DNA of 64,000 bases from Haladaptatus sp. QDMS2 (GTDB lineage Archaea > Halobacteriota > Halobacteria > Halobacteriales > Halococcaceae), in assembly GCF_029338295.1 (NCBI RefSeq), contig NZ_CP119791.1, positions 806,001 through 870,000 of the forward strand, in the 5' to 3' direction. The position numbers were made by a program, and so were the translations under genes. Position 1 is the first letter of the stretch. Each line of letters starts with the position of its first letter. Shown one piece after another: positions 37,329 to 42,599 of this stretch. A model generated the notes under the pieces. That model saw only the letters and a program-made list of their open reading frames with translations, ran no database searches and had not been told where the DNA came from.

Positions 37329-38402
37329 ATGGATACGGGCTCTGCCGAGAATTTCACCCGAACCGGGACACTCGGAATCGAAGAGGAGTTTTTCGTCGTC
37401 GATGACGTAGGCCGGCCGACGTCGGGGACGGACGAACTCGTCTACGAATCTGACCCTCCCGAACTGCTGGCTGGTCGCATCGACCACGAACTGTTCAAGT
37501 GCGTCGTAGAGACGCAGACGCCGGTCATCGAACGACTTTCTGCGGCCCGCGAGCAGCTGCTCGCAATCCGTGAGGCGCTTCTGTCCCACGCCGAAACCCA
37601 CGGTTTTGGCATCGCCGCGGCGGGCCTCCACCCGGCGGCAAAATGGCGCGAACTCGAACACGCCGAGAAATCGCGCTACAAGGCGCAACTCGACCGGATT
37701 CAGTACCCGCAGCACCGCAACACGACGGCTGGCTTGCACGTCCACATCGGCGTCGACGATGCGGACAAGGCGGTCTGGATTGCGAACGAGATTCGCTGGT
37801 ATCTCCCCGTGATGCTCGCACTCTCCGCGAACTCGCCGTTCTGGAACGGGTTCGACACCGGCCTCGCCTCCGCACGGGCGAAGATTTTCGAAAACCTCCC
37901 CAACACCGGGATGCCGACCGACTTCGACTCCTACGAGGACTTCCTCTCGTTCGAACACATGATGGTCACGCAAGGGTCGATAAACGACCGCGGTGAACTC
38001 TGGTACGACGTTCGCCCCCACACCGAGTACGGCACACTCGAAGTTAGAACGCCGGACGGACAGACCGACCCGGAGCGCGTCATGGCGTTCGTCGAGTACA
38101 CGGCGGCGCTGGTCGAGGACCTCGGCGCGCGCTACGACGACGGCGAGGAAGGCTATCGCCACCGGCGGGAACTCTTAGACGAGAACAAGTGGCGGGCGAT
38201 GCGCTACGGCCACGACGCCTCGTTCATCGACCTCGACAGACAAGGGACGAGCACCCTCGGCGAAATCGTCGACGAAGAGTGTGAGAGACTCGGCATCTCC
38301 GGCATCCGCGAGCTGTACGACGGCGAGAGCGGGGCCGACATGCAGCGCAGACTCCTCGAAGCGGAGGGGCTCCCCGCGCTCTGTGACGCACTTCGACTGT
38401 AG
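37329..38402 (+). CDS. gshA: Glutamate-cysteine ligase
   Basis: Haloarchaea use gamma-glutamylcysteine as a main thiol, and this ligase makes it. The 357-residue protein belongs to the GCS2 family: [17 protein letters not shown] at the N-terminus, [13 protein letters not shown] in the centre and [20 protein letters not shown] with substrate-binding residues. ATG 37329 lies about 30 bases after a CTGTTTAAG TATA element, predicting a nearly leaderless message. A winged-helix regulator gene follows after 46 bp. Confidence 0.93.
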
Positions 38403-38448
38403 CCAAGGGTTTTTACCCGACAGTCTCTTTTCCCCTTCTCAGAGGAGC

Positions 38449-38964
38449 ATGGCTGCTGACGACGCACCAGACAAACCGAAGGAGGGTGAACCAGCGGGTC
38501 ACAGGGGACCACGGGAGCGACTCGAGCAACACCGGTCGCGACTCGAAGACGAAACCGACCGGGCTGTCGGGCAGTTCGACGACCGCATCGTCGAACTCCT
38601 CTCGTGGGTCCTCGACACCGAAACGCGAGCACGCATCTACGTCTATCTGCGCCAGCATCCGTGGGCGACCAGCGAGGAAATCGCCGACGGAACCGGGCTG
38701 TATCCGAGCACCGTCCGGGAGGCGCTCGCGGAACTCCATACCGAAGAAGTGCTCGAACGCCGGAAACGCAAGAGTTCGGGCGCGGGGAACAACCCATATG
38801 AGTACACGGCGATGCCGCCGAGCGAACTCGTCACCGCGCTCGCAGAGCAGGTGCAGGACGAACTCAATACGGTGTTCAACCTCGACTGCTATCTCGGCAG
38901 GCGCGACCCGAAGACGGCGACCGAACCCGTGACGATCACCGTCGAGGAAGAGGCGGACGAATAA
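38449..38964 (+). CDS. Winged-helix transcriptional regulator
   Basis: The 171-residue protein has an acidic, charged N-terminus (~45 residues), then a winged-helix domain: VLDTETRARIYVYLRQHPWA, TSEEIADGTGLYPSTVREAL (recognition helix) and VLERRKRKSSGAGNNPYEYT (wing). The C-terminal helix ALAEQVQDELNTVFNLDCYL may dimerise. It could regulate gshA or itself; the gap contains a GGTTTTTAC TATA-like element at 38407-38415. Confidence 0.82.
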   Translation: MAADDAPDKPKEGEPAGHRGPRERLEQHRSRLEDETDRAVGQFDDRIVELLSWVLDTETRARIYVYLRQHPWATSEEIADGTGLYPSTVREALAELHTEEVLERRKRKSSGAGNNPYEYTAMPPSELVTALAEQVQDELNTVFNLDCYLGRRDPKTATEPVTITVEEEADE

Positions 38965-39048
38965 CCGGTCTGTGCGCGTCGGTTTTCTGATTGTTCATCG
39001 ATTCATTGAGTCGAAGCCACTAAGCCAGCGGCGGTAGTTGGGTGGGGT

Positions 39049-39543
39049 ATGAAAGTCGCGCTGGGCGGGACGTTCGACCCGGTCCATGATGGGCATCGAG
39101 AACTGCTCAAACGGGCCTTCGAACTCGGGGACGTGACAGTTGGCCTCACGAGTGACGAACTTGCGCCGAAGACGCGCAAGGAGGACCGCTACGTCAGACC
39201 GTACGACGAGCGCAAGGCGGACCTCGAAAAAGAACTCGAACAGTTCGCCGCCGAGTACGACCGCGAGTGGGAAATCCGGACGCTCACCGAGCCGACTGGC
39301 ATCGCCACCGAACCGCAGTTCGACGTGCTCGTCGTCTCCACCGAGACTCAGCGCGGAGGCGAACTCGTAAACGAAATCCGCGAAGAGCGCGGCCTCGAAC
39401 CGCTCCGAATCGAGGTTGTAGACCGCGTCTACGCGAAAGACGAGGACGTGATTTCGAGTACGCGCATCGTCCGTGGCGAAATCGACGAACACGGGAACCT
39501 CACGCCCGAACGCGAGGGGCGACCCGCAGAACGAGAGCAGTAA
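39049..39543 (+). CDS. coaD: Phosphopantetheine adenylyltransferase, archaeal type
   Basis: This nucleotidyltransferase makes dephospho-CoA from 4'-phosphopantetheine. The 164-residue protein has the ATP-binding motif VALGGTFDPVHDGHRELL (residues 3-20), the DVLVVSTETQRGG region and the C-terminal VISSTRIVRGEI. Archaeal enzymes lack some residues of bacterial CoaD but share this pattern. It converges with the TFB-like gene (stops one base apart). Confidence 0.9.
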   Translation: MKVALGGTFDPVHDGHRELLKRAFELGDVTVGLTSDELAPKTRKEDRYVRPYDERKADLEKELEQFAAEYDREWEIRTLTEPTGIATEPQFDVLVVSTETQRGGELVNEIREERGLEPLRIEVVDRVYAKDEDVISSTRIVRGEIDEHGNLTPEREGRPAEREQ

Positions 39544-39544
39544 G

Positions 39545-39853
39545 TTACCAGCCCGGCGGCCGCAGGCCCGCGGTCTCCAACAACTCCTTCCAGCGCTGTT
39601 GAATCGTCAGACGAGCGACGCCGACGGCCTCAGCGACGTCACCCTGTGAGCGTTCGTCACCGGCGATGAGTGCCCCGGCGTAGAGACTCGCCGCGACGGC
39701 CGCGCGCTTCGAGCGTTCCTTTTCGGGGACCGTCGAGAGAAAGAGGTCCGCCGCCCGAGAGCGCGCTTCGGTTCCGAGCGACAGTCGGTCTGCCGCCTGT
39801 TCGAGTTGCGCGAGCCACTCTTCGTTTTCCACCTGGTCGCGGGCCCGATACAC
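39545..39853 (-). CDS. Single cyclin-fold TFB/TFIIB-like protein
   Basis: The 102-residue protein resembles one cyclin repeat of transcription factor B: LGTEARSRAADLFLSTVPEK, AAVAASLYAGALIAGDERSQ and GDVAEAVGVARLTIQQRWKE, the last being an HTH-like element. Full TFB has a zinc ribbon, B-finger and two repeats, all missing here. Its start is a GTG at 39853 with a TATA box at 39877-39882, 27 bases away, so the mRNA is leaderless. It may modulate transcription initiation, but its function is not known. Confidence 0.8.
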   Translation of the reverse strand: MYRARDQVENEEWLAQLEQAADRLSLGTEARSRAADLFLSTVPEKERSKRAAVAASLYAGALIAGDERSQGDVAEAVGVARLTIQQRWKELLETAGLRPPGW

Positions 39854-39876
39854 GAACTGCGATTCGGCGTGATAGG

Positions 39877-39882
39877 ATATAA
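39877..39882 (-). promoter_or_regulatory. TATA box of the TFB-like gene
   Basis: On the minus strand this reads TTATAT, centred 27 bases before the GTG at 39853. The spacing predicts transcription starting at the GTG itself and supports that start codon. Confidence 0.6.
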
Positions 39883-39908
39883 GCCCTCGCCACCCGAGAG
39901 CGACAGGT

Positions 39909-39920
39909 ATTTTGTTTAAT
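39909..39920 (+). promoter_or_regulatory. TATA element of tRNA-Leu
   Basis: ATTTTGTTTAAT lies 20-31 bases before the first tRNA base, the normal place for an archaeal tRNA promoter. It is divergent from the TFB-like gene promoter 30 bp away. Confidence 0.5.
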
Positions 39921-39939
39921 GCGGGAAATCGGTAGACGC

Positions 39940-40023
39940 GCGTGGGTAGCCAAGCCAGGAAACGGCGCAGCGCTTAGGACGCTGTCTCGTAGGAGTCCGC
40001 CGGTTCAAATCCGGTCCCACGCA
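39940..40023 (+). tRNA. tRNA-Leu (anticodon UAG)
   Basis: An 84-nt class II tRNA folds with acceptor stem GCGTGGG/CCCACGC, D-arm region TAGCCAAGCCAGG, anticodon stem CAGCG/CGCTG with loop CTTAGGA (anticodon TAG, reading CUA), a variable arm, and T-arm CCGGTTCAAATCCGG. The discriminator is A at 40023. CCA is not encoded. No intron is visible. The sequence is very close to haloarchaeal tRNA-Leu as I recall it. Confidence 0.95.
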
Positions 40024-40101
40024 TTTTCTGTCGCGAACCAAACGGTGAGCGACGAAAATCGTACGGTCGGTTTGAAGCAGGGAGCAACTTGTTGCGACCG
40101 A

Positions 40102-40228
40102 GGTTCAAATCCGGTCCCACGTACTCTTCTGCGCGAGTATCACGAGCGCTAAAAATGGTCTGACCGATTTGAACGTTCGAGCGAAGCGAGAGAAGTTCAA
40201 ATCCGGTCCGTCTTCGTCAAATCCGGTC
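40102..40228 (+). repeat. Repeated copies of the tRNA-Leu 3' end
   Basis: The 20 bases at 40102-40121 are identical to the T-arm/acceptor end of tRNA-Leu at 40002-40021, exactly 100 bp downstream. Shorter copies are GTTCAAATCCGGTC at 40195-40208 and TCAAATCCGGTC at 40217-40228. An inverted copy, GACCGATTTGAAC at 40162-40174, can pair with 40195-40208 with one bulge. No gene is present. This is the pattern left by integration events at a tRNA 3' end, though no integrase remains. Confidence 0.75.
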
Positions 40229-40254
40229 TCTCGTTCCAAAAAAAGCGTCCGTCG

Positions 40255-40566
40255 TCACTCCGTCCGTTTCCCGCCGTCTGCGATGCGTTCTGCGTCCGCG
40301 TGCCCGTCGTTGAGTGGTTCTGCGCGATTCGAGTCAGCAATTCGGATGTGTTCTCTCCCGGTTCCATCGACGGCGCGTGCGGCGCGATTTTGCTGGAGTG
40401 CGGTGCCGATGCGGATGCCCGCGACGCCGAGGAAGAAGGGGACGAGCACCCACCAGAAGAGGGTCTGTGTGCCCGCGAAAAACCAGACGAGTGCGGCGAC
40501 CGGCGCGAGAAGGAAAAGGGCGAGCCGGAGGCCCCACCAGGAGGATGCTGTGAGAGGTGTTCGCAT
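40255..40566 (-). CDS. Small predicted membrane protein
   Basis: The 103-residue protein has two hydrophobic segments, LRLALFLLAPVAALVWFFAG (about 13-32) and TLFWWVLVPFFLGVAGIRIG (about 35-54), then a hydrophilic, charged C-terminus. It looks like a haloarchaeal two-helix membrane protein of unknown function. It is on the same strand as, and just downstream of, the S66 peptidase gene. Confidence 0.55.
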   Translation of the reverse strand: MRTPLTASSWWGLRLALFLLAPVAALVWFFAGTQTLFWWVLVPFFLGVAGIRIGTALQQNRAARAVDGTGREHIRIADSNRAEPLNDGHADAERIADGGKRTE

Positions 40567-40624
40567 TACACGGCATTACGCCGTCTGTATGATAAGTGTT
40601 GGGACAGCGCCAACGATTTCGCGG

Positions 40625-41680
40625 TCACTCCGCGAAGGTGATGCGTTCTCGTGCAGAATCGACCACGACGCGCCCGCCGATTGGTGGTGCGGCGGTCGGA
40701 TACGTGTGGCCGAATTCGAGGTCGAAGACGATGGGTGCGTCAGGGTTGTATTCTCGGACCGTGTCGATGATGGCTTCGCGCTGGCGGGTTCGGTACGCCT
40801 CGCGTTCGTCGGGTGGGTTGGGGTCGAAGACGCTTCTGGCGCGGGCGCGGCCGACGAGTACGGCGGCAAAGCGTTCGAGCAGGCCGCGTTCGCCGAGGCC
40901 GAGGAGGAACCACCGGACGTCGAAGTCGCGGGGCAGTTCCTCTGAGGTTTCGAGGCAGAGGACGGTGCCAGAGAGTGCGTCCGGGTCGGGAAGGTAGTGG
41001 CTCACCGCGAGCTGGAGGTCCACGATTTCGAGACAGCCACCCCACGTCCGTCCGGAGACGACGGTTTCGGGGCCGTCCCAGTGCCAGCCGTCGCTGTCCT
41101 CCCATTCTGGTTCGTAGTCGAGCGTGTCCGGGTCGGCCCAGTCGTGGCCGTCGTCGGTGAACGCGGTGGCGGGTTCGAGTTCGCCGTGTTCCTCCTCGAA
41201 GAAGGCGCGTCTGAGATAGCGTTCGGTGTAGTCGGGGTGGCCGCCGTGGACCGCGAGGTCGGTCATGACCATGCCACCGTAGTAGGAGACGAGGCCCGCG
41301 TTCCAGAGTGCGAGTTGGAGGTTCGTGTTGTCACTCACGCCGTAGAACCGGGTGGGATGCTCCCGGAGCACGTCGGTGTCGAGGTGTTTGAGGATGCGAA
41401 TCTGGTCCTCGCCGCCGATGGTGGCGATGACGCCCGCGATGTCCGGGTCGACGAAGGCGTCTTCGACGTCCCGTGCTCGTTCTTCCGGGTGGTCGTAGAG
41501 GTACTCGCTCGACTTCGTCGCCGTCGGGAATTCGACGGGTTCGAGGTCGAACGTCTCGCGCAGCGTTTCGAGGCCCTGTTCGTAGACGTGGGGAAACTGG
41601 CTGGCGTGACCGCCGGCTGGAGCGACGATGGCGACTCGGTCGCCGGGTTCGAGCGGTGGTGGGACGACGAATTCGTGCAT
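40625..41680 (-). CDS. S66 family peptidase (LD-carboxypeptidase/MccF-like)
   Basis: The 351-residue protein starts PPLEPGDRVAIVAPAGGHAS, the usual S66 N-terminus, and has the nucleophile region RFYGVSDNTNLQLALWNAGL, with the catalytic serine in GVSD, plus TVLCLETSEELPRDFDVRWF (acidic residue) and the late LEFGHTYPTAAPPIGG (histidine). S66 enzymes cleave murein tetrapeptides or inactivate microcin C. Archaea lack murein, so another peptide-nucleotide or peptide substrate is likely. Confidence 0.88.
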   Translation of the reverse strand: MHEFVVPPPLEPGDRVAIVAPAGGHASQFPHVYEQGLETLRETFDLEPVEFPTATKSSEYLYDHPEERARDVEDAFVDPDIAGVIATIGGEDQIRILKHLDTDVLREHPTRFYGVSDNTNLQLALWNAGLVSYYGGMVMTDLAVHGGHPDYTERYLRRAFFEEEHGELEPATAFTDDGHDWADPDTLDYEPEWEDSDGWHWDGPETVVSGRTWGGCLEIVDLQLAVSHYLPDPDALSGTVLCLETSEELPRDFDVRWFLLGLGERGLLERFAAVLVGRARARSVFDPNPPDEREAYRTRQREAIIDTVREYNPDAPIVFDLEFGHTYPTAAPPIGGRVVVDSARERITFAE

Positions 41681-41786
41681 GCGTTGGTTTCACCGAATCG
41701 TCTGATAACAGTTATGCACGTTCTGCCGGGAAATCGCACCCGGGCGCCACAAACCTTTTTGTCGGCTTCACGAGTGGATAGAACCA

Positions 41787-42599
41787 ATGAGTGAAATCCG
41801 CGACCTTCTGGGACCGATTGTGTCCGAGGTCGACGCTATCTTGCTGTTCTCTCCGAGCGCCTCCTACTACGGGCGCTTCGCAGAGGTTGACGATGTCAAG
41901 GTCGTGGTCGTCGCCCCCGAGAACACGGTCTCTGCTACCCAGTTTGTGGAACTTCCACTCGAATTCGATAACGTCGCCTCACGCATTCGCTACGGTATCG
42001 AAGGGGCGATCAACAACGACATCATCGACGACGGCGACGACCTGCTCTGTGCGACGAAGATGTTCGACGAGGAAATCGATTCCCTCACGCGGGTCCGCGC
42101 GAGTGAGTTCACCCACACCGGCATCTACGACCTCTTCATGAACTCGCGGGCAGAGCCGACTGTCATCCGCGACGTGCTCGAAGTCGCCATCGAACTCGGG
42201 AAGAAAGGACAGAAAGGCAAGCCCGTCGGCGCGCTGTTCGTGGTTGGCGACGCGGGCAAGGTGATGAACAAGTCTCGGCCCCTCTCGTACAACCCGTTCG
42301 AGAAGTCTCACGTCCACGTCGGCGACCCCATCGTGAACGTCATGCTGAAGGAATTCTCCCGTCTCGACGGGGCGTTCGTCATCTCTGATGCGGGCAAGAT
42401 TGTCTCAGCCTACCGCTATCTCGAACCGTCTGCGGAGGGCGTCGACATTCCGAAAGGACTCGGGGCGCGGCACATGGCAGCGGCGGCGACCACTCGTGAC
42501 ACCAACGCAATCTGCATCGTGTTGAGCGAGAGCGACGGGCTGGTTCGGGCGTTCAAGGGTGGCGAACTCATCCTCGAACTGGACCCCGAGGAGTACTGA
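41787..42599 (+). CDS. dacZ: Archaeal diadenylate cyclase
   Basis: DacZ makes cyclic di-AMP from two ATP. The 270-residue protein carries the DisA_N catalytic domain in its C-terminal half: KEFSRLDGAFVISDAGKIV (the DGA motif) and GLGARHMAAAATTRDTNAI (the RHx motif, here RHM). The N-terminal ~140 residues form the archaeal regulatory or oligomerisation domain. A CCTTTTT element about 30 bases upstream suggests a leaderless mRNA. It is followed after 3 bp by an MscS channel gene; c-di-AMP is tied to osmotic control. Confidence 0.92.
   Translation: MSEIRDLLGPIVSEVDAILLFSPSASYYGRFAEVDDVKVVVVAPENTVSATQFVELPLEFDNVASRIRYGIEGAINNDIIDDGDDLLCATKMFDEEIDSLTRVRASEFTHTGIYDLFMNSRAEPTVIRDVLEVAIELGKKGQKGKPVGALFVVGDAGKVMNKSRPLSYNPFEKSHVHVGDPIVNVMLKEFSRLDGAFVISDAGKIVSAYRYLEPSAEGVDIPKGLGARHMAAAATTRDTNAICIVLSESDGLVRAFKGGELILELDPEEY

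Follow-up and report, generated by a model that had tools for sequence, protein, structure and literature searches.

Tandem copies of tRNA 3′ ends in Halobacteria: candidate boundaries of small non-coding mobile cassettes

tRNA genes are classic landing pads of mobile DNA. Casposons and similar elements would duplicate the tRNA 3′ end as a target around their insert, whatever the isotype. In integron arrays, modular units are stacked behind a fixed anchor site, and each ends in a fold-back structure (attC) of which one strand folds. Repeats are also found at the E. coli tyrosine tRNA locus, where they carry a 178-bp name. Among archaeal tRNA-targeting elements, which use tyrosine integrases, the att site of SNJ2 is given as 13–14 nt in the part of the source cited here (PMC8371274). 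For prophages and islands in tRNA genes of Haloquadratum walsbyi, the cited part of the report describes partial tRNA copies of 22–57 nt behind the tRNA genes (PMC3119063).

The window analysed here is a stretch of 64,000 nucleotides from Haladaptatus sp. QDMS2 (contig NZ_CP119791.1, positions 806,001 to 870,000, forward strand). In this window, two units of about 100 nt stand behind the tRNA-Leu(UAG) gene, each closing on a copy of the tRNA 3′ end, and a further, truncated copy follows. Our preferred reading, to which we assign a probability of roughly 0.55, is that such repeats are the boundaries of small mobile non-coding cassettes of Halobacteria, inserting exactly at the 3′ ends of tRNA genes. 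Species appear to acquire such cassettes, lose them and exchange them with one another.

Anatomy of the tRNA-Leu(UAG) array

The features of the array are given below in window coordinates, all on the plus strand.

39940–40023 (+): tRNA-Leu(UAG), head of the array (ARAGORN; Rfam tRNA model, 50.6 bits); its nt 53–73 (40003–40023) are the copied core
40024–40058 (+): hairpin P1 of unit 1, the left module, with tandem GA/GA within the stem (fold of 40024–40121)
40060–40121 (+): hairpin P2 of unit 1, ending in a 20/20 copy of the tRNA 3′ end (predicted fold)
40065–40076 (+): inverted half-core of unit 1 (sequence), pairing with the copy at 40102–40121 in the predicted fold
40077–40102 (+): right module of unit 1, of the AGGGAGC..GCGACCG type (sequence)
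40102–40121 (+): core copy 1, 20/20 (sequence match)
40131–40149 (+): hairpin P1 of unit 2, with GA/GA (fold of 40122–40214, which as a whole is not better than shuffles)
40162–40174 (+): inverted half-core of unit 2 (sequence and fold)
40175–40194 (+): right module of unit 2 (sequence and fold)
40195–40209 (+): core copy 2, 15/15, then diverging (sequence match)
40217–40228 (+): truncated core copy, 12/12 (sequence match)

The segment 40002–40021 (GGTTCAAATCCGGTCCCACG) recurs with 20 identities out of 20 at 40102–40121, at a spacing of exactly 100 nt, as the initial annotation had reported, and the two shorter direct copies that it mentioned are those at 40195–40209 and 40217–40228. It had also described a single inverted partial copy forming a hairpin. 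The pairing is indeed predicted, though the number has to be corrected to two (40065–40076 and 40162–40174), and each inverted copy pairs in the predicted fold with the direct copy that follows. The initial annotation had missed that the copies delimit units, that a hairpin immediately follows the tRNA, and that the layout recurs behind other tRNAs and in other genomes.

As a single strand, unit 1 has a predicted fold that beats all of 200 shuffles. The fold of unit 2 is unremarkable, 12 of 200 shuffles being equally good. The right module of unit 1 is also found behind several other tRNAs of the same genome. In a covariance-model search with Rfam 15 over positions 38000–42000, the array had no match; only the tRNA was recovered, together with a far-sub-threshold match at 39237–39394. 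A short gene on the opposite strand lies between coaD and tRNA-Leu(UAG) (39049–40023), and coaD, whose named relatives belong to Halobacteria, is found near tRNA-Leu(UAG) in 62 of 80 named haloarchaeal loci.

Distribution and architecture of the units

Taking a match of at least 15/21 to tRNA nt 53–73 within 400 nt, a copy of the gene's own 3′ end lies downstream of 21 of the 44 tRNA genes of the Haladaptatus genome and upstream of none, so the repeats go beyond chance. Among 139 Halobacteria tRNAs (own genome included, a sample rich in tRNA-Leu), copies were found downstream of 83 and upstream of none. The same test on other genomes of the phylum gave one downstream copy for 78 tRNAs and no upstream copy. 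Within this sample, the arrays are restricted to Halobacteria. In a second complete genome, from a different family (G041), 14 of 31 tRNAs have a copy within 500 nt downstream and none upstream, the 31 being the tRNAs among the matches listed (30 of 42 loci). For tRNA-Leu(UAG) of named genomes, a copy of at least 13/17 is present within 600 nt downstream in 44 of 62 cases and upstream in 2, the 62 being those of 80 named coaD loci that contain tRNA-Leu(UAG); in two of the 62, less than 100 nt of sequence was available downstream. In Haloarcula (L098, L109, L134, L155), tRNA-Leu(UAG) and tRNA-Leu(GAG) lie on opposite strands, at most about 2 kb apart, and the 3′ arrays of both genes face each other.

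A set of 116 units (27 from the own genome, 22 from other genomes and 67 from named genomes) was restricted to copies of at least 15/21 and spacers of at most 190 nt. Loci L001–L009 are omitted from this set and from the analyses of 40 own tRNAs, so that the window's own array and three other own tRNAs are absent from these statistics, while the 44-tRNA copy count is complete. Core-to-core length has a median of 113 bp (quartiles 106–127, range 36–182). Identity of the copy to its tRNA is 0.82–0.98 from nt 52 to nt 73, a value raised by the dropping of copies below 15/21, which also leaves uncounted those trailers that keep just the T-loop half (several Ser, Asp and Lys tRNAs). Past nt 73, identity falls to 0.46–0.48 at the next two bases and then to 0.2–0.4, and before nt 52 it is at most 0.6. 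The edges are thus sharp, with a start at nt 52/53 and an end at nt 73: the copies run from the T-loop to the discriminator base and do not include the trailer. In this respect the initial view of the copies as attachment-type cores (tRNA nt 53–73) stands, insertion at the tRNA 3′ end being the best reading.

Between two cores, the order is left hairpin P1, inverted half-core and right module, and P2 pairs the inverted half-copy of the tRNA's own T-loop with the direct copy. The inverted half-core tracks the isotype: in 14 of 26 own-genome units none of the 16 cores compared fits better than the unit's own, which is strictly best in 5, and none of 5000 permutations of the core labels fits equally well. 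Internal copies are near-identical to the tRNA (mean 19.9/21). Of 29 arrays with several units, 20 have a last copy that is poorer than their best internal one, and 1 has a better last copy; outward drift of old units would produce this pattern, and so would a lack of constraint on the last copy. The units are related to one another, so the p values for this ranking, and for the strand folding below, are not those of independent samples.

No gene-bearing cassette occurs among the 116 units (36–182 bp); a possible exception of 1.35 kb is found in L032. At this locus (minus strand, 1–1600), a tRNA-Leu(UAG) with an altered 3′ end is followed 1.35 kb further on by a core copy, and the intervening DNA resembles the right end of the Haloferax massiliensis element described below. 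L032 may represent a gene-bearing cassette or else a tRNA that has been broken.

Variant layouts were also noticed. Some Ser, Asp and Lys trailers of the own genome (L057, L064, L067, L048) have an inverted half-core and no full copy; a T-loop half-copy stands behind the inverted half-core, except at Ser(GGA). In a second unit type (L047, L068, L070, L076, L194, L206), the copy does not begin until about nt 61, and the hairpin in front of it ends like GCTCACTCCC or GCTCAGTCCC.

Sharing of units between loci and strand preference

Comparison of all units with one another gave 733 cross-locus matches at E ≤ 1e-4. Of these, 8 are within the own genome, and 92 are between genomes with at least 85% identity over at least 50 nt; shuffled units (one set) gave no hit. 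Unit identity exceeds coaD nucleotide identity in 17 of the 19 genome pairs with a best unit identity of at least 0.8. Over 903 pairs, drawn from named loci only and including congeneric ones, the correlation between unit and coaD identity is weak but not nil (Spearman 0.11). In the Halorientalis pair L112/L119, for example, coaD identity is 0.96 and the best unit identity 0.67. The link of the units to species divergence is therefore weak.

One unit of 105 nt is matched in 53 of 194 genomes of the class, the own genome not being among them. Among the 30 loci listed, 28 matches directly follow a detected tRNA and share its strand; of the remaining two, one follows an intron-bearing tRNA (read as tRNA-Trp) and the other a displaced 3′ part of tRNA-Leu. 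At all 30 listed loci, with tRNAs of many isotypes, the unit is on a single strand relative to the tRNA. Among the non-Leu loci of the matches listed, 12 of 15 match only from query position 37 onward, which corresponds to the right module. Modules are shared across isotypes and genera, and what is shared across isotypes is mostly the right module, so that jumps of entire cassettes from one isotype to another may be rare.

At the orthologous tRNA-Leu(UAG) of the congener G002, a similar P1 is present with one pair changed on both sides; the right module differs from that of the window and is of a type widespread in other families. A second congener, G001, has no unit at this tRNA. The initial annotation had held that conservation of the repeats in all relatives, with no element ever found there, would speak against its view. 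The layout is indeed widespread, but individual cassettes are not conserved.

A near-clean difference of one unit separates two species of Halobaculum. H. gomorrense (L113) and H. saliterrae (L143) have identical tRNA-Leu(UAG) genes (86/86), and 182 of 191 aligned positions downstream match. L143 carries an extra unit of 91 bp (70 bp plus a 21-bp core), unlike its neighbour, exactly between nt 73 and the P1 that adjoins the tRNA in L113. Farther along, 39 nt are missing from L143; in L113 this stretch includes the older core copy. Either one species may have gained the unit, or the other may have lost it via the 21-bp repeats. Elsewhere, L155 has an extra distal unit relative to L134, so arrays need not always grow at the end nearest the tRNA. 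The median identity between adjacent units is 0.57 (shuffle null 0.48, 95% at 0.55), and 1 of 37 cases reaches 0.8 or more.

The tRNA-sense strand is predicted to fold better than its complement in 82 of the 116 units (mean z −3.41 versus −2.70). Against single-shuffle controls, which also served for unit matching, the units contain 114 helices of at least 8 pairs versus 11, and 31 C-GNA-G triloops versus 4, with no enrichment of GNRA tetraloops (5 versus 3). The triloop excess is small in the downstream regions of the own genome alone (9, against 4 upstream). GNA loops of DNA are known for their stability, and given this the enrichment of GNA triloops and not of GNRA loops would lean towards DNA as the folded strand. 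G·U and A·C mismatches, counted to tell RNA from DNA, number 4 versus 1 in one count and 38 versus 29 in another, and favour neither. A strict GA/GA hairpin is found behind 44 of 99 tRNAs of other Halobacteria, compared with none upstream and 4 of 99 on the opposite strand; the respective figures for 40 own tRNAs are 11, 1 and 1. In an alignment of 14 P2 sequences from Leu, Gly, Met, Arg and Lys tRNAs, chosen by a pattern with conserved module letters, 8 of 23 pairs are kept through two-sided changes, and of two outer pairs, one is disrupted in 5 of the sequences and the other in 2.

Competing explanations and relation to known systems

In the preferred reading, a cassette of about 90–130 bp without genes would land at a tRNA 3′ end; after each insertion the tRNA would stand intact ahead of the cassette, and tRNA nt 53–73 would be present a second time behind it. 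Successive insertions would in this way build a short array with the tRNA as fixed head. Each cassette would comprise two modules: on the left the hairpin P1, on the right the hairpin P2, which consists of inverted half-core, variable middle and core copy. Right modules would be exchanged among cassettes at T-loop-like sequences. Beyond such exchange and loss, we infer that insertion would spread the cassettes, with new units entering next to the tRNA and a recombinase acting in trans. The core could either be carried in as an attachment site or be made by target duplication. A carrier was sought by comparing one 127-nt unit with plasmids and phages, where nothing was found, and by searching viral contigs with two patterns, which gave no genuine hit; two exact pattern hits were discarded, as they lie inside an open frame on contigs in which no tRNA was detected. 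A strand-biased fold is not what plain double-strand integration would lead one to expect. A doubtful extension of the cassette reading would be an integron-like, gene-free system anchored at tRNA 3′ ends, in which the tRNA-sense strand of the cassettes folds as single-stranded DNA (GA/GA stems, GNA loops and P2 as the folded site) and an unrecognised recombinase reading the T-loop captures, stacks and reshuffles them.

The main rival, possible though clearly less probable than mobile cassettes, is a structured 3′-trailer RNA. The units would be transcribed with the tRNA, with roles for P1 and P2 in processing, in termination or in regulation. Pairing of the inverted half-core with the T-arm of its own tRNA would be possible, and the downstream copy would keep the half-core sequestered. 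Selection would act on the RNA, and modules would be passed on by gene conversion and by ordinary horizontal transfer. Much of the folding evidence would fit such an RNA: the better fold of the sense strand (82/116 units), the GA/GA hairpin behind 44/99 tRNAs as against 4/99 on the other strand and 0/99 upstream, the 8 of 23 P2 pairs kept through double changes in 14 sequences of five isotypes, and the inverted half-core that follows the isotype, matched by 0 of 5000 label permutations. However, about half of the tRNA genes have no copy and the congener G001 has no unit at tRNA-Leu(UAG), the copies match the acceptor strand up to nt 73, beyond the paired T-loop, and the enriched loops are GNA triloops (31 versus 4) and not the RNA-type GNRA loops (5 versus 3). 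The two readings could each hold in part, because a passenger located behind an essential tRNA gene has to leave that gene undisturbed.

The initial annotation had proposed repeated integration and loss of ordinary tRNA-targeting integrase elements, whose remnants the repeats would be. The core does equal a 3′-end att site, the inserts are bounded by a duplicated tRNA 3′ end, and elements of this sort exist at the genes concerned. Haloferax massiliensis (L180, G060:C2:467700-478900) carries a 9.8-kb element with a PF00589 gene at tRNA-Leu(UAG), the displaced, larger old tRNA 3′ part still having a cassette behind it; the 3′ end of this tRNA-Leu(UAG) is now unlike that of other Haloferax. In the own genome (L213, G000:C1:2454000-2464300), an element of about 9.25 kb with an integrase inside lies behind tRNA-Arg(CCG), and additional palindromic stretches break up what seems to be its displaced tRNA 3′ part. 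Both traced elements seem to have left such a larger displaced part, not units of the present kind, and their ends were rejected as parents of the cassettes because no unit layout lies between tRNA and copy. A far direct copy in L125 likewise turned out to be a displaced tRNA 3′ part. No integrase gene is left in or near the insert, as had been noted initially: none of the ten PF00589 matches of the genome lies in the window. Random remnants would not be expected to be short and uniform (about 110 bp), unrelated to one another and built of hairpin modules common to genera and isotypes. The inserts also stand behind about half of the tRNA genes in the two genomes examined, and we consider this origin unlikely. 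Plain tandem duplication of the tRNA 3′ end with its trailer, as at the E. coli tyrosine tRNA/rttR locus, would account for the tandem layout, and duplication does occur, as judged by two identical units in the L029 array and an A-B-A order in L141. As the main source it was rejected on the grounds of the stop of identity at nt 73 and of neighbours that are dissimilar (median 0.57, against 0.92 and 0.88 for the E. coli trailers), the inserted L143 unit among them; as a general account we hold it very improbable. Least probable of all would be decoy attachment sites, suggested at first as copies kept by selection and drawing integrases off the tRNA: internal copies are near-identical to the tRNA, as such decoys should be, but hairpins, modules and shared spacers would be left unexplained, and both traced integrase elements hit the tRNA and not a copy.

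A literature search by titles and abstract openings, most subscription papers lying outside its reach, found no description of such arrays. Widespread, tiny and gene-free modular cassettes would represent a new scale of mobile element, or else a new structured trailer of many tRNAs. For annotation, a partial tRNA 3′ copy near a haloarchaeal tRNA should not on its own be read as marking a provirus or island. Since the arrays are short and sufficiently common in the class, simple PCR and RNA work in a model haloarchaeon is feasible.

Archaeal tRNA-targeting elements, as described in the cited part of the source (PMC8371274), are alike in that they insert at a tRNA gene, leave the tRNA intact and have a partial tRNA copy at the far end. 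In contrast to them, the cassettes carry no integrase or other gene, measure about 110 bp instead of kilobases, stand as several unrelated inserts in a row and have hairpin modules common to isotypes. The H. walsbyi copies lie 6.7–52 kb away around gene-bearing DNA, and the cited part of that report makes no mention of short arrays (PMC3119063). Compared with casposons, the arrays are without a large element; a casposon/Cas1 origin is not supported, as PF01867 (Cas1), present in 14 of 60 genomes searched, is absent from the own genome and from the array-rich G041.

The E. coli tyrosine tRNA/rttR locus likewise has regularly spaced copies of the tRNA 3′ end downstream of the tRNA. Its trailers are near-identical (0.92 and 0.88 for those following the first two copies; copies 16/21), whereas the haloarchaeal units are unrelated, are not mutual copies that include the trailer, and have copies ending sharply at nt 73. 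The haloarchaeal arrays resemble integron cassette arrays in their fixed anchor, in modular units that are stacked and exchangeable and that each end in a fold-back structure, and in the folding of one strand. They differ in that the units have no genes, the anchor is a tRNA and no integron integrase was identified. Taken together, the component parts resemble known att duplications, rttR repeats and integron arrays; a dedicated single-strand recombinase, if true, would make the arrays a new kind.
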